Part shown: positions 1-5,982 of the stretch, piece after piece
Position numbering within the stretch: the first letter of the stretch is position 1
Layout: every line of letters starts with the position of its first letter
Virus record (IMG/VR): IMGVR_UViG_3300034141_000022
Location: 1-36,642 of that record
Reading direction: 5' to 3' (one strand)
Length of the DNA stretch: 36,642 nucleotides
Source: a virus
Position numbers and translations under genes: made by a program
Notes under the pieces: model-generated
Databases searched by the model: none
Told to the model about the DNA's origin: nothing
The model's input: only the letters and a program-made list of their open reading frames with translations

Positions 1-375
1 CATGCTTTTGATGTCGATCACCGCCATGCGCCCGCGCACCAGCCCGCCGAGATCCGGCGTACCACTGAATCCCATCGTGTGATACAGGCGTTGTTCGCGC
101 AGCACCGGCTTGAACGCGCAGTCATCCAGAAAACGCTTGTACGCCAGCAGGTACAGCCGCATTTCTTCGGTCAGCATGGATTCGTCCAGATCGTTCGCGT
201 CGTACAGTTCCGTCATCTTGTGGACCGCCGTGCCGCGGGCGCTGGCCGCTTCCAGGATGTGCGGCTTGACCATTGAGAAATCCATCAGCGGCTGCAGAAT
301 CTGCGTGACACTCGGGACCACGACGCCGTTGTAACGGTACTCGTGGCTCTTGGGGTTGAAGGTCAAGCCATCCAT
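1..375 (-). CDS. PD-(D/E)XK phage recombination exonuclease, 3' end cut by window edge
   Basis: The first 125 residues of a leftward gene run off the left edge. The start is the ATG at 375-373, overlapping the recT stop (TGATG), with an AAGGA ribosome site 9 nt upstream. The translation shows the nuclease core of the PD-(D/E)XK superfamily: GTPD at residues 105-108, followed by VIDIK at 119-123, giving candidate metal ligands D108, D121 and catalytic K123, with E94 as a possible earlier ligand. In phages this fold (RecE, lambda Exo and Cas4-like forms) resects double-strand ends to make 3' single strands. The neighbouring RecT would then load on these strands, so the pair forms a two-component recombinase. 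The C-terminal part is not visible, so the exact subfamily is open. Confidence 0.8.
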   Translation of the reverse strand, partial: MDGLTFNPKSHEYRYNGVVVPSVTQILQPLMDFSMVKPHILEAASARGTAVHKMTELYDANDLDESMLTEEMRLYLLAYKRFLDDCAFKPVLREQRLYHTMGFSGTPDLGGLVRGRMAVIDIKSM

Positions 376-1415
376 CAGATCTGTTCCTTCACCCATGCCA
401 GGATGTGCGCGCACTTGCTTTCGGTCAGCAGGTCCAGATCGACGTCGAATTTCGATTCGATCGCGTTTTCGCCAAGGCCCGCCGCATCAATCTTTTTGCG
501 CAGCGTGGCAATCGCCTCTTTGCTGGCCAACTCGCCCGAATCCTCATCAGCTGCCGGCGCTGGATCCTGGCGCTGCGACTTGGCGCGCACGCCATGGTCG
601 GCGGGCGCCCACTCGCCAGCAGCCGGATCCGCTGCCGGCATGTCGCCAAAATCCGGAATGTCACCATGGTCGACCACCACGAAATCGCCGTCGATGGTGA
701 ATTTCTCGCCCGCGTCGGCAGCTTCGGCGGCGGCGATCGCCTTCTGGATCTCCACCGATTGCGGCATGTACTTGAGAACCTGCAGCAGCGGCACCTTGCG
801 CGCGTACATTTCGAAATTGCGGTAGTCGTCTTTCAGCGCGTAATGGTTGCCGCCTACCTTGTTGAACTTGTTCAGGTGCCGGATGATGCGGTCTTTGGAC
901 CAAACCTCGATCACTGGCATGTCGGTGCCGGTGATTTTGCCGATGGCGTACACGTATTCTAGGTCTTCCCAATCGTCCGAATCGCTGTTCGGCTTGTGGA
1001 CGCAACGCGGGTTCGCGCCCAACTCCCAATCGAAATGATCGCCGGCATACACGGCGCCGGTCCAGACGACGGCACGGCCAGCGCGCGCCACCAGATCAAC
1101 CAAGCCTTTCCAGCCCGGCACAAACTGCGCTTCGTGGTGGCGCTTTTTGTTGTTGAAGTATGGGATCAGGTAGCCCTGCCCGCCGACGCCGATTTCCAGC
1201 CCCAGCTGCGCCGCCGTCAGCGTCGAACCGAACAGGCTAATCAGGTCGCACTTCTGCAGATCCGCGCTGCGGCTCCACGCGGTCGCGGCCAGCCGGATCA
1301 GGCGGTCGACGCCGATGTGCGCCGGCAGCGCCATGGCCAGCTGCTTTTTCGATCGCTCAAAAAAGCCAACCAGGTCGGCAGGCTTGTGCGCGACCATAAT
1401 TTCGTTGTTACCCAT
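375..1415 (-). CDS. recT: RecT-family single-strand annealing protein
   Basis: This 346-aa protein has the RecT signature: an N-terminal segment (FERSKKQLAMALP), then the core with LTAAQLGLEIG, GYLIPYFNNKK and FVPGWKGLVDLVARAG at about residues 68-113. RecT anneals complementary single strands and promotes strand exchange during phage recombination. It is longer than E. coli Rac RecT (269 aa). The extra length is an acidic, proline/alanine-rich C-terminal region after about residue 255, perhaps a partner-binding tail. The start ATG at 1415 has AGGAG 8 nt upstream. It lies between a 69-aa gene and the exonuclease gene, all leftward, so the three are probably co-transcribed from the promoter at 1694-1722. 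The family call is secure. Confidence 0.93.
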   Translation of the reverse strand: MGNNEIMVAHKPADLVGFFERSKKQLAMALPAHIGVDRLIRLAATAWSRSADLQKCDLISLFGSTLTAAQLGLEIGVGGQGYLIPYFNNKKRHHEAQFVPGWKGLVDLVARAGRAVVWTGAVYAGDHFDWELGANPRCVHKPNSDSDDWEDLEYVYAIGKITGTDMPVIEVWSKDRIIRHLNKFNKVGGNHYALKDDYRNFEMYARKVPLLQVLKYMPQSVEIQKAIAAAEAADAGEKFTIDGDFVVVDHGDIPDFGDMPAADPAAGEWAPADHGVRAKSQRQDPAPAADEDSGELASKEAIATLRKKIDAAGLGENAIESKFDVDLDLLTESKCAHILAWVKEQI

Positions 1416-1448
1416 TGTATGAACTCCTAAGTTGGTGGAACTACCGTT

Positions 1449-1658
1449 TTACTTCGCCAGACGCAACAATGCAATTTCATTTGCCGCCGCCTGGATGGCC
1501 TTATCAAGTGCATCGATCCTAGCCTGGGTGCGGTCCAATTCCGCCCATTCCTGCAGCGATTCGGAGCGCAGATACCGCAAGCGGCCCATCTTCCACCAGA
1601 TACAAACGCGCCGCATCAGTGGCAGTGGTTTTGTCGCCGCCTTACCCGTCGATACCAT
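1449..1658 (-). CDS. Small phage protein of unknown function, 69 aa
   Basis: This is the first gene of the leftward early operon. An upstream TTG at 1685 is in frame, but the ATG at 1658 is preferred because AAGGGG sits 5 nt before it. The N-terminal half is basic and aromatic (VCIWWKMGRLRYLRSE at about residues 19-34). The C-terminal half is heptad-like and probably an alpha helix or coiled coil (LDRTQARIDALDKAIQAAANE). No catalytic or metal-binding motif is visible. Its place before recT suggests an early recombination or host-takeover accessory, but this is inference from position only. Confidence 0.75.
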   Translation of the reverse strand: MVSTGKAATKPLPLMRRVCIWWKMGRLRYLRSESLQEWAELDRTQARIDALDKAIQAAANEIALLRLAK

Positions 1659-1693
1659 GTCATCCCCTTGTGTTTTTGTTAGCAACGGTTAAG

Positions 1694-1722
1694 ATCATAT
1701 TTCAAATTAACAGGATGCGCAA
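1694..1722 (-). promoter_or_regulatory. Candidate leftward early promoter
   Basis: On the minus strand there is a -35-like TTGCGC (1722-1717), a 17-bp spacer and a good -10 TATGAT (1699-1694). It points into the 69-aa gene, recT and the exonuclease. It lies back to back with the rightward promoter at 1747-1776, as in lambdoid early control regions. The -35 matches the consensus poorly, so it may need an activator or be weak. Confidence 0.55.
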
Positions 1723-1731
1723 TAGAAATTT

Positions 1732-1776
1732 ACGACAAAATTGTCGTTGACAGCGGCAGATTTGTCGTCACATAAT
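1732..1776 (+). promoter_or_regulatory. Rightward early promoter with overlapping operator half-sites
   Basis: There is a perfect -35 TTGACA at 1747-1752, an 18-bp spacer and -10 CATAAT at 1771-1776. An inverted repeat, ACGACAA-AA-TTGTCGT (1732-1747), overlaps the -35. A further half-site, TTTGTCGT (1761-1768), lies inside the spacer. A protein bound at these sites would block RNA polymerase. The likely ligand is the small HTH protein encoded just downstream or a repressor outside the window; that link is inference. Confidence 0.65.
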
Positions 1777-1809
1777 GACAGCCATCAATTACTAGGAGGC
1801 ATTAAACAA

Positions 1810-2037
1810 ATGAAGATTGATCCGGAATATGTAAAAAAGGAATTGATACGGCGCACCAGCGAACGACAGCTGAGCCTGGTTGCGCTGGGCTGCGGCGTCA
1901 ACGTCCGCACCATGCAGCGCATCATGGCCGGCTACACCGGCGCCAAGGTCAAGACCGTCAGCGCGCTGCAGACCTACCTGAAAAACACCGAGCGCCTGCA
2001 CTTCCTGCCGGATGCGCGCAAGAATGGGAATAACTGA
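1810..2037 (+). CDS. Small helix-turn-helix regulator, 75 aa
   Basis: The start is the ATG at 1810, with AGGAGG (1794-1799) 10 nt upstream. In-frame codons further upstream lie inside the promoter and are rejected. The central segment, SLVALGCGVNVRTMQRIMAG, fits a helix-turn-helix: a hydrophobic helix, a Gly-containing turn, then a recognition helix with R-T-M-Q-R. It is followed by a stabilising helix (VKTVSALQTYLKN). As the first gene downstream of the operator-bearing promoter, it is the best candidate in the window for a Cro-like autoregulator that binds the TTGTCGT sites. It is shorter than CI-type repressors and has no peptidase domain. The exact family was not identified. Confidence 0.75.
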   Translation: MKIDPEYVKKELIRRTSERQLSLVALGCGVNVRTMQRIMAGYTGAKVKTVSALQTYLKNTERLHFLPDARKNGNN

Positions 2038-2039
2038 CC

Positions 2040-3107
2040 ATGGCCGAGCCGGTTTATTACAACGAATACGATCTGACCGCTGCCAAGTGGCTGGAAAACC
2101 TGATCAGGGCCGGGCACATTGCCTATGGCGTGGTCGACACCAGGAGCATAGAAGATGTACGACCAAACGATCTCGTCGGATTTAAACAATGCCACTTCTT
2201 CGCCGGAATCGGTGTGTGGTCCTACGCGCTTCGTCGTGCCGGCTGGGCAGATGATCGACCTGTTTGGACCGGTTCCTGTCCTTGCCAACCTTTCAGCGCG
2301 GCAGGCGAAGGCGCTGGGTTTGCTGACGAGCGGCACCTATGGCCAGCCTTCAAGCACCTTATCAAAGAGCGTCGCCCTGCAGTCGTCTTTGGAGAGCAGG
2401 TTGCAAGCAAGGCTGTCGACCCTTGGATCGACCTTGTACACACTGACATGGAAGGCATGGGATACGGGTTCGGGGCGGTTGCGTTCCCGGCTGCGAGCGT
2501 CGGTGCGCCGCACATCCGAGATCGAACCTATTGGGCCGGCTGGCTGGGTGACGCCGACGTCGCGCGACTGGAAAGACTCCGGCGCGGACATAAAGCCACG
2601 CGAGGGAGGAAAGGAGCGGTTCGACCAGTTGCCGAGGCAGGCGAACTTGTGCGGGTGGCCGACGCCGACGGCAGCACTGGCGGACAAGGGGGTTCGGACA
2701 TTCGAGGGCGGATTGATGGAGGCGATGCGCAATCATGGTCCAGACTTGGCGGCGGCGGCGTGTCTGTCGGGCTGGCCGACGCCGATGTCGGGATCGAAGG
2801 GGACGGACAAGTACAACGGGACGGTGAGCAGCGATTCATCACGGCAGACGGAAGCACTTTGTTTCAAGGAAGTGGCGGGCCACAAGCTGGATCTGCCGGC
2901 GATTTCGCCCGGCCCGGCCCGACTAACGGCTACTGGTCTGCTGCTGACTGGCTTGGATGCCGGGATGGAAAGTGGCGGCCAGTTGAACCCGGCACATTCC
3001 CGCTGGTTAATGGGGCTACCGCCCGAGTGGGACGACTGCGCGGTTACGGAAACGCCATTAATGCTGAGCAAGCGCGAATCTTTATTGAATGCTTCGATGG
3101 GGCTTGA
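2040..3107 (+). CDS. C5-cytosine DNA methyltransferase
   Basis: This 355-aa protein transfers methyl from S-adenosylmethionine to cytosine C5 in DNA. Visible motifs are motif I FAGIG (54-58), motif IV PCQPFS with the catalytic Cys82 (81-86), GEQV in place of the usual ENV of motif VI (118-121), a motif VIII-like [10 protein letters not shown] (156-165), and the C-terminal motif IX/X region around [12 protein letters not shown] (about 325-336). Between about residues 168 and 290 there is a Gly/Asp-rich variable region with repeated ADADG-like strings where the target-recognition domain should lie. No restriction enzyme is adjacent, so it is an orphan, probably protecting phage DNA. Nearly the whole gene from 2155 on is also open in a second frame (see the overlapping gene). 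Confidence 0.9.
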
Positions 3108-3123
3108 TCATGGCCGGAAATAA
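2155..3123 (+). CDS. Overlapping gene inside the methyltransferase gene, WPTP-repeat protein
   Basis: This 322-aa frame, offset +1 from the methyltransferase gene, starts at an ATG with a textbook AGGAG (2142-2146) 8 nt upstream. It ends 16 nt past the methyltransferase stop. The translation looks like real protein: [28 protein letters not shown]-type and TLTWKAW strings, three TPT/WPTP-type repeats ([27 protein letters not shown]), then [20 protein letters not shown] and a basic C-terminus. I recall very similar strings from phage hypothetical proteins, which suggests a conserved family; this is memory, not a search. The function is unknown. Pairing with the methyltransferase suggests a linked role, for example in DNA modification or as a specificity partner, but that is a guess. 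Confidence 0.65.
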
Positions 3124-3670
3124 AAAGCCGCGCAAGAAGCTGGGCAAGCTGGGGGGCATGGGCGCAGCGGTGCGCGCCAGGGCGTCGAAGGTGGCGCAGG
3201 CGCAAAACGAGGTCGACCGGCTGAATATGCTGGTGCGCGTGCAGAATTTAACCGGGCTCGGGCATGAATCGAACAGGTACAAGGTCGATCTGACGTTCGG
3301 CCCCATGGAAACGGCGCTGGATCGCATCGAGGCGACCGGCGAAATGGAAGTCGACGAGGACGGCGACGCCTGCATGCGCGACCCGCTGGATGGCTCGCAA
3401 ATCGCGTTCGGGCCGGCGCTGGTCAGTTCGGCCAAGATATTCGCCCGCATCGCGCCACGCTTCGACTGGCCGCCGATGCCGGACGGGATGCGCCGCGCCG
3501 GCGCCAAGGTATGCAACGGCATGCTGCTCGACGATTTCGACATCGCTGGCATGCGCGAAACGATCGCCTGGATGCGCGCCGCAATCGCAGAAATCACGCC
3601 GAACGAGTGGTCGGAGATCTGCGACGAGGAACTGGTGATCGACGCCATGGCCGCACAGAAAGCGGCCTGA
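3110..3670 (+). CDS. Phage protein of unknown function, 186 aa
   Basis: The start is the ATG at 3110, with a GGGG stretch upstream. An in-frame ATG at 3089 has no ribosome site and lies deeper in the upstream overlapping genes. The N-terminus is very basic ([12 protein letters not shown]), followed by a helical region and a long mixed alpha/beta body. There are no catalytic motifs or membrane segments. The last base of its TGA is the first base of the next gene's ATG. It lies in the early operon behind the DNA methyltransferase, so a nucleic-acid role is plausible given the basic N-terminus, but the family is not recognised. Confidence 0.8.
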
Positions 3671-4176
3671 TGAAAACAAAAATACCGCAAGAAGTCATAA
3701 AGGCGTATCTGGATTACGACCCATTAACAGGTTTTTTCAAGTGGAAGTTTAGTCGCCGTGGGCGTGCTAAAGCTGGAACGATCGCTGGAACGGTAAGTAA
3801 GGAAGATGCATACGTGCGGATAGGTTTGTTGGGCCAAGTCTACATGGCGCATGTCCTGGCTTGGGTTTATGTCACTGGCGACTACCCCATTGCTTGGATT
3901 GATCACAAGGATAGCAATGGCCAGAATAATGTTTTCCTGAACTTGAGGGAGTCGAATAAATCGGAAAATGCCCAAAACGTTCGTACAGCGGTGAGTGGGA
4001 GTGTGTCTGGATTTTTAGGCGTCAGCTTGCATAAAAAGACGGGACTATGGCGCGCTCGCATCACGATAAACCAAGTGGAAAAAACAATAGGGTATTTCAA
4101 AACACCGGAATTGGCGCACTCGGCTTACTTAGCTGAAAAGAAAATTCTTCATCCTTTCGGCGAGATCGCAAAATGA
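3670..4176 (+). CDS. HNH homing-type endonuclease with AP2 DNA-binding domain
   Basis: This 168-aa protein has an HNH nuclease domain in its first half: LAWVYVTGDYP, then IDHKDSNGQNN (77-87) with H79, and NLRESNKSENAQN around 91-103. An AP2-type DNA-binding domain follows (GFLGVSLHKKTGLWRARI at 114-131, then a helix ending near AYLAEKK). This order is typical of free-standing homing endonucleases that copy themselves between phages. The gene is visibly richer in A+T than its neighbours, with codons such as aaa, ata and tta, which fits recent insertion. It fits neatly between its neighbours through ATGA overlaps at both ends, so its arrival did not break translation coupling. The family call is strong; the cleavage target is unknown. 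Confidence 0.88.
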   Translation: MKTKIPQEVIKAYLDYDPLTGFFKWKFSRRGRAKAGTIAGTVSKEDAYVRIGLLGQVYMAHVLAWVYVTGDYPIAWIDHKDSNGQNNVFLNLRESNKSENAQNVRTAVSGSVSGFLGVSLHKKTGLWRARITINQVEKTIGYFKTPELAHSAYLAEKKILHPFGEIAK

Positions 4177-4496
4177 GCTGGGCATATCGCTGTATGAAGT
4201 GTCGTGGTCGGAATACGCTGAAACAGAAGTTGGATTGGTATATCAGGGTGCCGAAATGTCGCCACTGTAAACACGCGTCTTTTTATCTAGACAAGAGCCG
4301 GCAATACCGAGATGACATATGCGATTGCAGCGGATATCACTTTAAACACCGCATCAAGAGCAAGTTTTGCGAGCATCACCCTGATTACCAGTTCAACGTG
4401 CGCACGCTGCGCTACAAGGAATGCCCCGAGGAAGTGCGTCTGGACATGGCATACAACACCGCGTGGCAGCCGCCAACTAAAGTTTTACCATTTTAG
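4173..4496 (+). CDS. Zinc-ribbon phage protein, 107 aa
   Basis: The ATG overlaps the previous stop by 4 nt. Two CxxC pairs, CMKC (7-10) and CRHC (33-36), form a zinc ribbon. A later group, CDCSGY near residue 50 followed by CEHH, may bind a second metal. The protein is basic and aromatic. Similar CDCSGYH-containing proteins are familiar from other phages, but no function is established that I know of. A nucleic-acid-binding role is plausible. The coding sequence is as A+T-rich as the adjacent endonuclease gene, so the two may have arrived together. Confidence 0.8.
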   Translation: MSWAYRCMKCRGRNTLKQKLDWYIRVPKCRHCKHASFYLDKSRQYRDDICDCSGYHFKHRIKSKFCEHHPDYQFNVRTLRYKECPEEVRLDMAYNTAWQPPTKVLPF

Positions 4497-4506
4497 GAGT
4501 TCAACC

Positions 4507-4938
4507 ATGGCAAAAAAAGGCCAAGAAAACAAACAAATCGTTCTTGACGCGTTGCCGGGCACGGTGCGCGATGTGATGCTGATCACCGGCTTGAAGATCG
4601 CATGCGTGTCCCACTGGATCAAGCTTTTGCGTGAAGGTGATGCCACCCATATATCGGAATGGATCCCGACAGCAGGGCGCTATCGTGCGTACTACGTCGC
4701 CGGGGCCGGTGAAAACGTACCAGAGCCCAAACAGAAATCATCAGGTGAATACACGCGCCGCTGCCGCGCCGCTGCCATTGAATTTAATAAGCCGTTCGTA
4801 GCCGCCAAACGTCTTAGCTTAAAAAGAGCAAACAAGACGATCGAGAGCGGCAAGGACCAGGTTATCGGCGACCTGATGGCCGGACTATTCGCAAAGCGCA
4901 TCAAGCGCCAGCGCTCGGCAATGAAGGGCGGTGCGTGA
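4507..4938 (+). CDS. Probable winged-helix DNA-binding protein, 143 aa
   Basis: The start is the ATG at 4507, with AGGAG (4495-4499) 7 nt before it. Residues about 15-45 (LPGTVRDVMLITGLKIACVSHWIKLL in two parts) resemble a winged-helix or HTH unit of the kind that reads gene-order switches, followed by a basic C-terminal tail (RIKRQRSAMKGG). There are no other motifs. It may be a local transcription factor for the early operon, but its target cannot be read from the sequence. The stop overlaps the next start (TGATG). Confidence 0.7.
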   Translation: MAKKGQENKQIVLDALPGTVRDVMLITGLKIACVSHWIKLLREGDATHISEWIPTAGRYRAYYVAGAGENVPEPKQKSSGEYTRRCRAAAIEFNKPFVAAKRLSLKRANKTIESGKDQVIGDLMAGLFAKRIKRQRSAMKGGA

Positions 4939-5198
4939 TGACTACCCGTACCGTTGATCGTAACGAAGATATGAGCGCACGAGGACGGCTGCGCCTAATT
5001 CAGCAAGAAGACGGCGATATTATTGTGGCCGTTCAGCCAGAAGAAAACGGCTTGATCATGGGCGGTTCGGCTGTCGAGTTCTGCTCACCAGTCGCTGGCG
5101 GTGGCCGGAGCCCGCACACGTTGGCGGCACTGCGCGCTCTAATGGATGCGATGGAGAAGGACAACGCAGATAGACCAACTGCAGGCGGTCAGACATGA
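4938..5198 (+). CDS. Conserved-looking small phage protein, 86 aa
   Basis: The start is taken as the ATG at 4938, overlapping the upstream TGA; a GTG one codon earlier is possible. An AAGGGCGG stretch lies upstream. The protein contains GRLRLIQQEDGDIIVAVQ, then a Gly-rich loop and a helical end (TLAALRALMDAMEKDNADR). I recall related small proteins in Burkholderia-type phages. There is no catalytic motif and no assigned function. It is translationally coupled to the gene on each side. Confidence 0.75.
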   Translation: MTTRTVDRNEDMSARGRLRLIQQEDGDIIVAVQPEENGLIMGGSAVEFCSPVAGGGRSPHTLAALRALMDAMEKDNADRPTAGGQT

Positions 5199-5740
5199 GC
5201 GCCGCACCTATCGAGCGCATGAAAAAGATTCTTGCGCTGGCGCGCCGCGGCGTCGACGGAGAGAAGGCGACAGCCGAAGCGATGCTGGCGCGACTAATGC
5301 ATAAATACCGCCTGACCATCGCCGACCTGGAAGACCCGGCAGCAGAGCGCACCAAGCACTGGTTCAAATGCCGCAACAAGCGCGAACGCGCCCTACTTTC
5401 TCAAATAACAGCGTTCGTACTGCAGTCCCGCGAGTTCGATATCTGGTCCGCAAAAACTCTACCGGGCGAGCGCGCCGTATCACTTACGCCGCTTGAATTT
5501 GCCGAGGTTGATGTGCGGTATGAAGCGTACAAGGTGGCATTAAAAGCCGAGCTACAGAAAGCTGAAGCGCGAATTTATTCAGCCTTTATTCAGGCGAACA
5601 ACCTTGGCCTATCGCCGCTTGAAGATGCGGATCATCCATCGCCGCCGATGGATCCTGAAGATCTGTTTGCAATCATGGCCCTGATGGGCGGTATGAAGCC
5701 GGTCCAGGTTTATCGGCAAATCGAGGATGGTGCAGCATGA
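5195..5740 (+). CDS. DUF2786-like phage protein, 181 aa
   Basis: The N-terminal 45 residues match the DUF2786 pattern: a helix with ERMKKILALARRG, then an alanine-rich stretch with EAMLARLMHKYRLTIADLE. The body carries many Arg, Lys and Glu residues and could be nuclease-like or DNA-binding. The biochemical role of this family is not established. The C-terminal part (residues 140-181) is acidic and proline-rich. It overlaps its neighbours by 4 nt at both ends, so it is an integral member of the early operon. Confidence 0.78.
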   Translation: MSAAPIERMKKILALARRGVDGEKATAEAMLARLMHKYRLTIADLEDPAAERTKHWFKCRNKRERALLSQITAFVLQSREFDIWSAKTLPGERAVSLTPLEFAEVDVRYEAYKVALKAELQKAEARIYSAFIQANNLGLSPLEDADHPSPPMDPEDLFAIMALMGGMKPVQVYRQIEDGAA

Positions 5741-5982
5741 AGCCCGCATGCGCGATCTGCGGTCGCCTGACCGTGCCGGCGGCCTACATCGGCGCCGAGC
5801 CAATCGGCCCGACCTGCGCACGCCTTGCTGGGCTGCTGAAAAAGCAAGGCGGGCGTGTACGGCTGGCGCAAGATCCGAACGGTCAAATCGATTTCACTTT
5901 CACGCCGCCGGCGGGCCCACCACCACCGCCACCACCAACCCAGCTTGATCTGTTCACAAACGAGGATGCGCCCCATGGATAA
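5737..5982 (+). CDS. Small zinc-binding protein with polyproline tract, 81 aa
   Basis: It begins with CAICG at residues 5-9 and a third Cys in GPTCARLAG (residue 27), a short metal-binding module. A run of prolines near residues 58-68 follows, and the end, QLDLFTNE, resembles a short peptide motif used to dock on DNA-replication proteins such as the sliding clamp (QxxLF). That docking role is inference from the string alone. Similar small proteins ending in a DLF motif occur in other phages, from memory. The gene is coupled on both sides. Confidence 0.72.
   Translation: MKPACAICGRLTVPAAYIGAEPIGPTCARLAGLLKKQGGRVRLAQDPNGQIDFTFTPPAGPPPPPPPTQLDLFTNEDAPHG

Follow-up and report, generated by a model that had tools for sequence, protein, structure and literature searches.

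Cytosine-5 methyltransferases (C5-MTases) made of two polypeptides are already known, and one of them, M.EcoHK31I, has overlapping frames. Lee, Kam and Shaw reportedly found in 1995 that its beta gene lies inside alpha but in a different reading frame, and the beta polypeptide is said to be 176 aa long. To our knowledge, two real proteins seldom share a long overlap on the same strand, and such cases are usually disputed. PMC3404938 and PMC3439449 present M.EcoHK31I as a two-polypeptide C5-MTase and, in the former, motifs I–VIII and X are assigned to the larger subunit and motif IX to the smaller one, with the predicted target domain in the larger subunit, a placement that speaks against the target region in beta proposed below. 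PMC3404938 also places motif X of M.AquI together with motif IX in the small subunit. Natural circularly permuted C5-MTases, with motifs IX–X before motif I, are named in PMC5944983; as described there, that survey sought motif X before motif I, and an order with motifs II–III before motif I would escape it. In the literature searched, mostly without subscription papers and REBASE, no report was found of a dual-frame arrangement as a widespread feature of phages.

The window considered here is the whole 36,642-nt stretch of the virus record IMGVR_UViG_3300034141_000022 (positions 1 to 36,642). It carries two frames on the same strand that overlap over about 950 bp:

2040–3107, + strand: alpha, a C5-MTase polypeptide of 355 aa with motif X but no motif IX (PF00145, phrog_363, structural match to M.HhaI)
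2142–2146, + strand: ribosome-binding site of beta, AGGAG, with 8-nt spacing to the ATG (sequence)
2155–3123, + strand: beta, a +1-frame polypeptide of 322 aa, putative target-recognition and motif IX subunit (phrog_31772/phrog_1008, conservation, selection)

Very probably, alpha and beta constitute a two-polypeptide C5-MTase produced from overlapping frames and working like M.EcoHK31I. An earlier sequence-only reading of the locus had correctly described the +1 frame, with its own ATG, the AGGAG 8 nt upstream, 322 codons and a stop 16 nt beyond that of alpha. An identical (100%) alpha/beta pair is also present in a 61.9-kb IMG/VR contig. When the codons of alpha were shuffled synonymously, a +1 stretch of at least the observed length arose in 11 of 5000 trials, and this test is conservative because the codon mix of alpha has already been shaped by beta. 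The change in codon usage within the overlap, also pointed out earlier, is borne out by the GC3 of alpha, which is 0.718 upstream of the overlap (39 codons only) and 0.566 within it (316 codons); the corresponding values are 0.711 for beta and 0.729 for four other ORFs of the window.

Alpha matches PF00145 (E 4.3e-13) and phrog_363 (E 3.5e-81), and the elements of the two polypeptides are distributed along the DNA as follows:

2055–2162, + strand: alpha residues 6–41, region of motifs II (NEYD) and III (IEDV), ahead of motif I (M.HhaI alignment, profile match, pattern)
2193–2213, + strand: alpha motif I, HFFAGIG (sequence, conserved columns)
2271–2297, + strand: alpha motif IV, GSCPCQPFS with the catalytic PCQ (P81, C82 and Q83 invariant in a 98-sequence alignment)
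2502–2525, + strand: alpha motif VIII, GAPHIRDR (conserved columns; aligned with M.HhaI)
2545–2784, + strand: WxTP blocks of beta (at 2545, 2656 and 2773), putative target-recognition region, read in alpha as GDAD/VADADG/LADAD (repeats; constraint in beta only)
2616–2885, + strand: alpha residues 193–282, predicted disordered filler at the position of the target domain (pLDDT below 50 almost throughout; middle-segment omega of alpha near 1)
2986–3030, + strand: motif IX-like element of beta, 15 aa (most columns fully or almost fully conserved across 98 betas; alignment with a single-frame enzyme)
3033–3086, + strand: alpha motif X, 18 aa, 3 nt after the end of the beta motif IX and in the other frame (conserved columns; helix at residues 342–354, block pLDDT of about 82–90)

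The alignments for AlphaFold2 held 98 of the 102 selected sequences, with L109, L112, L120 and L122 omitted for cut ends or unusual lengths. In the resulting alpha model (mean pLDDT 68, pTM 0.66) the catalytic part lies mostly at a pLDDT of about 90 or higher, but falls lower at the motif IV loop (residues 84–92, below 50) and around residues 151–160. Structure comparison aligned the model with M.HhaI over 192 residues (Z 13.5, 3.4 Å), other C5-MTases were matched too, and the best Foldseek E-value was 3.4e-7. Alpha carries the catalytic PCQ and, as modelled, the C5-MTase fold expected of PF00145.

The suggestion that the methyltransferase frame has all the main motifs had to be given up. Alpha departs from the canonical single-chain order I–X in two ways, as motif IX is found in the other polypeptide and motifs II–III come ahead of motif I. 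In all 12 M.HhaI rows among the matches listed, residues 1–3 of the alpha model align with residues 32–34 of M.HhaI, which we take to be the start of its motif II–III region. A profile comparison of alpha with the motif II–III part of canonical enzymes gives a weak match (E 0.0029, hhalign probability 10.6%). Of 136 window-type alphas, 116 show the order NExD, FFAGIG, PCQ (or PPQ) in a pattern search, always with exactly 22 aa separating motifs I and IV, as against 56–94 aa in 100 canonical segments; the same kind of search found motifs II–III before motif I in none of the single-frame enzymes classed. Judged by its motif assignments, the window's clade is locally permuted, in the order II-III-I-IV-VIII-X.

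Conservation of the two frames was followed in the best 80 viral loci by beta and the best 80 by alpha, each taken from a longer list; together with the window and its own locus they make up 162 sources, which include some duplicates and, having been chosen by similarity to the window's proteins, do not sample methyltransferases at random. Four segments were sought, one from each end of alpha and of beta, and every one of the 162 has them all. Beta lies at +1 relative to alpha and is unbroken in every source, and alpha is unbroken in 159, the exceptions with a stop being L067, L146 and L154. Among loci fetched by alpha alone, beta is intact in 80 of 80 and alpha in 78 of 80. A second frame broken by stops beside an intact methyltransferase, the outcome that the sequence-only reading had named as contrary to dual coding, therefore occurs in none of the 162 sources of the window's clade; the +1 frame stops early only in distant actinophage enzymes, where motif IX lies in the methyltransferase frame.

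The 159 sources with both frames intact reduce to 137 distinct sequences. The chosen beta start is ATG in 132 of the 137 and is preceded by a Shine–Dalgarno match of at least 4 nt in 119, compared with 193 of 1703 control ATGs inside the overlap, these start and Shine–Dalgarno counts being upper estimates because the choice of start favoured both features; the beta sequence is conserved from soon past the chosen start. A few of the distinct alphas are about 490 aa long, with a C-terminal extension of about 165 aa beyond the beta stop, and one beta frame extends 643 nt past the alpha stop.

Selection was estimated from nucleotide alignments of 64 independent pairs, 78–98.5% identical and covering 128 of the 137 distinct sequences, in which each difference was sorted as synonymous or not in alpha and in the +1 frame. 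Upstream of the overlap the +1 frame is neutral, with an omega of 0.96 (interval 0.72–1.39) at alpha-nonsynonymous and 1.44 (0.88–3.02) at alpha-synonymous changes, and alpha is constrained (0.14). Across motifs I–VIII the omega of alpha is 0.24 (0.21–0.27), and that of beta is 0.40 (0.32–0.50) at alpha-synonymous and 0.67 (0.59–0.75) at alpha-nonsynonymous changes; here, part of the conservation of beta is forced by alpha. In the middle segment, from motif VIII to the C-terminal block, beta is constrained (0.25, 0.18–0.40; and 0.40, 0.33–0.47) and alpha is not (1.34, 1.15–1.51; and 0.84, 0.61–1.28). In the motif X segment both are constrained, alpha at 0.39 and beta at 0.21. The intervals of beta at alpha-synonymous changes all lie at or below 0.50 in the three overlap segments, although this measure is imperfectly calibrated, as the +2 control frame yields 0.49–0.69 there; at alpha-nonsynonymous changes in the overlap the +2 control lies at 1.25–1.76. 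Dominance thus alternates along the gene, with alpha at motifs I–VIII, beta alone from VIII to X and both at the end. Synonymous-site constraint in the methyltransferase frame, which had been put forward as a check, is present within the overlap and absent upstream of it in the window's clade.

In 36 pairs from distant phages, used as a replicate, the omega of beta at alpha-synonymous changes is 0.32, 0.30 and 0.14 in the successive segments, and that of alpha is 0.24, 0.87 and 0.78. The last value, for the IX–X segment (0.56–1.09), fails to reproduce the constraint on both frames that the window's clade shows in that segment.

These results bear on the simplest alternative, that the +1 ORF is incidental, held open by the motifs and GC-rich codons of alpha, with its conservation forced by alpha. 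High GC does yield other long spurious ORFs in the window, and in the motif region alpha does dictate part of the +1 sequence. Such forcing is hard to reconcile with a middle segment in which the +1 frame is constrained and alpha is free, with the loss of +1 constraint upstream of the overlap, with a +2 frame that shows none at alpha-nonsynonymous changes, or with the conservation of the ATG and Shine–Dalgarno site of beta, and we regard it as extremely improbable. The earlier proposal of dual coding by two real proteins accordingly stands, both frames being unbroken in nearly all sources and both under purifying selection.

Two families that bear the label DNA methyltransferase match beta, phrog_31772 at E 2.9e-42 and phrog_1008 at E 1.9e-39; no usable match was obtained in Pfam, NCBIfam, PADLOC or PDB sequences. 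Its fold model is poor (pLDDT 60, pTM 0.26), and in a fold search allowing E up to 10 it drew 18 matches, all above 0.001, with no usable PDB match among them. The 15-aa element near its end aligns with the block that precedes motif X in a single-frame enzyme, and we take it to be motif IX from its position and from the consensus of that motif. In Estave1 and similar actinophage enzymes a beta-like block lies in the alpha frame directly before motif X. The phrog_1008 profile aligns with residues 203–366 of the single-frame Estave1 enzyme (E 9.2e-50), a value that would be inflated if the family includes single-frame proteins, as it may; compared directly, the window-type beta profile matches the single-frame enzyme over only 22 columns (E 0.0054, probability 6.7%). 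The same family also recognises the betas of other phages, including Paenibacillus phage Leyra (E 8e-74), Mycobacterium phage Bipolar (5e-54) and phages of Lacticaseibacillus (1e-27), Porphyromonas (3e-12) and Vibrio (2e-10), with Pseudomonas phage PS-1 at 0.0012. With the window-type profile the probabilities are 98.4% for Leyra and 71.7% for Bipolar, and the comparison with the Porphyromonas phage beta is not significant (3.5%), phrog_1008 providing the link between them.

Between motifs VIII and IX, beta carries the WxTP blocks. The sequence-only reading had recognised a repeat, read as WPTP in one frame and ADADG in the other, at three sites; the underlying 13-mer TGGCCGACGCCGA is exact at 2656 and 2773, and at 2545 it has two mismatches. 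With up to two mismatches it has 17 matches in the window against 3.2 expected from shuffling, and by itself it is therefore not specific to the methyltransferase gene. Among the betas of the 137 loci the number of WxTP blocks ranges from 0 to 5, with a median spacing of 37 aa, and it differs in 46 of 143 close beta pairs, which are not independent of one another. Taken with the location between VIII and IX, this variation suggests a target-recognition region built from modules, which beta probably carries. The order in the DNA, VIII-TRD-IX-X, would then be classical, with the putative TRD and motif IX read in the +1 frame.

One could instead suppose that alpha by itself makes up the whole enzyme and that beta is a distinct protein, such as a methylase regulator, and the want of any notable Pfam, NCBIfam, PADLOC or PDB match and the poor fold model of beta would sit comfortably with this. 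The reading is nevertheless highly unlikely in our judgement, given an alpha that lacks motif IX and, in the model, a folded target domain, and given that single-frame relatives carry the motif IX block of beta within their alpha frame. The 'WPTP-repeat protein' of the sequence-only reading is thus real, but in place of a separate function it probably provides the missing motif IX and target-recognition half of the same enzyme.

The spread of the arrangement was examined in 375 loci, 373 of them with the catalytic core, obtained by seven scans with six query proteins, five of the six being of the split type, and from hand-picked phage records. Merging of identical copies and exclusion of nine cut-off loci left 311 that were classed, and the fractions given here are not population frequencies. 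By pattern, 246 loci have motif IX exclusively in the +1 frame and 32 exclusively in the alpha frame (25 of these in the Estave1 set); it was seen in both frames in 10 and in neither in 18, alpha is broken soon past the core in five, and the pattern occurs in the +2 frame in three loci. The relaxed pattern for motifs IX and X misses variants, and all 12 loci without a patterned motif IX but with motif X show a +1 variant by eye. Inspection assigned these 12 of the 18 negative loci and nine of the 10 both-frame loci to the +1 class, raising it to 267 of 311, with 30 single-frame loci, three with motif IX in the core frame but without motif X, and 11 broken, shifted or unclear.

In the three loci L195, L234 and L296 the core ORF continues straight into the motif IX frame and motif X is lost, which may reflect an indel, a sequencing error or a genuine alpha–beta fusion. 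In L216, L238, L326, L327 and L356 the frame of motif X is +1 relative to the catalytic core, and these may represent a broken alpha, an indel or a shifted join. Both groups can be read in favour of beta being reached by +1 ribosomal frameshifting, yielding fusions of alpha (I–VIII) with beta (TRD–IX) instead of a product of its own start; the second group would imply a mobile join, and fused forms are viable, as the single-frame enzymes demonstrate. The odd loci may, however, be indels or assembly errors, the usual fusion would be without motif X, and no stop codon compels a shift. Moreover, the ATG and Shine–Dalgarno site of beta recur at most loci, even allowing for the choice of start, and the sequence is conserved soon after. 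Frameshifting is in our view very unlikely, and we favour initiation of beta at its own start.

The single-frame actinophage enzymes provide a comparison for the selection results. In 10 such pairs, past the +1 stop, the omega of alpha is 0.28 and the +1 frame is neutral (0.99, interval 0.80–1.16), as expected where the frame is not open; for the remaining +1 ORF beyond the core it is 1.10 (0.59–2.02), and changes in the motif region were too few to judge +1 selection. With an alpha omega of 0.28 here against about 1 in the split relatives, constraint on alpha in the target part tracks the presence of motif IX in the alpha frame. In L168 (Gordonia phage JKSyngboy) and L220 (Estave1) a +1 ORF with a beta-like N-terminus runs across motifs IV–VIII despite the alpha-frame motif IX, with too few changes for a measure of selection.

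Annotation of these loci is uneven. By tblastn, alpha matched 391 phage records and beta 149. For the 60 of the 149 beta matches that were listed, one annotated feature was found at 48, two at nine and none at one, two records being unannotated, and the single-feature counts include short matches that may be confined to one of the two genes. Beta had 14 plasmid matches as well; 11 of them fall under a single 'DNA cytosine methyltransferase' and one under an 'Uncharacterised protein', and two have none, their gene table being incomplete. In Mycobacterium phage Bipolar (L162, 1466–2017) gp69, annotated as 'DNA methyltransferase', corresponds to the beta frame, and the frame with motifs IV–X is unannotated. 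Both frames are annotated in phages K1G and Leyra, and the nested ORF30 of K1G reads as beta.

Genes beside the alpha/beta pair encode RecT, a repressor-like protein and an HNH nuclease, a usual early-gene setting. Scanning of the ten flanking ORFs (375–5979) revealed no recognised type II restriction endonuclease family, and this, together with the setting, makes an orphan, self-protecting phage methylase likeliest. The HNH nuclease (3670–4173), two genes downstream, has an AP2-like C-terminal stretch under the Pfam cut-off; HNH with AP2-like is a common layout of homing endonucleases. An ORF of 186 aa adjoining the end of beta (3110–3667) has no Pfam or PHROG match.

In the proposed mechanism a single transcript would give rise to two polypeptides from overlapping frames. 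Alpha would fold as the SAM-binding and catalytic part, with motif X at its end, and between motifs VIII and X its ribosomes would read the target-domain DNA out of frame, producing a disordered linker of nearly irrelevant sequence. Beta would initiate independently at 2155 from its own Shine–Dalgarno site and, as the +1 reading of the same DNA, would supply the target-recognition region with its WxTP blocks, as well as motif IX. We infer that alpha and beta assemble into one active C5-MTase, most likely an orphan phage enzyme that would mark phage DNA against host restriction.

Taken jointly, we lean towards a broader reading in which the dual-frame form is a major and ancient C5-MTase architecture of phages of Firmicutes, Bacteroidetes and Proteobacteria, with WxTP modules of about 37 aa, the single-frame actinophage form as its other state and, in the window's clade, motifs II–III moved ahead of motif I. 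If so, changes in the number of WxTP modules could let specificity evolve almost free of alpha, and annotation would often miss half of the methyltransferase; many annotated phage cytosine methylases are predicted to be half enzymes, seemingly inactive when cloned within their annotated limits. Beta, for which Pfam and NCBIfam gave no match, would then deserve annotation alongside phage cytosine methylases. The overlap recurs in hundreds of loci, mostly viral contigs, selection switches between frames along one gene, and single-frame relatives are available for comparison.

Among known systems, the C5-MTases permuted in the manner of M.BssHII share with alpha a non-canonical motif order, but in alpha it is motifs II–III that precede motif I, and motif X remains at the end. 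M.AquI is likewise a naturally split C5-MTase, whereas in the window motif X stays in alpha (3033–3086) and the frames overlap by about 950 bp. The single-frame C5-methylases of actinophages Estave1, Graduation, Chanagan, JKSyngboy and Gudmit share the core and motif X and have a motif IX block resembling that of beta, but they hold it in the alpha frame, where alpha is constrained. M.EcoHK31I (YGGCCR) is closest: in its layout the large polypeptide similarly has motifs I–VIII and X without IX and the small one has IX, and its frames are reportedly nested, as beta overlaps alpha here in another frame of the same strand. Unlike M.EcoHK31I, the window's pair has no restriction enzyme family recognised among the ten flanking ORFs, its alpha is permuted in motif order, and its beta is longer (322 aa), with WxTP blocks and probably the target domain. 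New here are the wide spread, the hand-over of selection between frames, the proposed placing of target recognition in beta, the single-frame relatives, the II–III-before-I order and the predicted disordered segment of alpha. The comparison also suggests a re-reading of M.EcoHK31I itself, with target recognition in beta instead of alpha.
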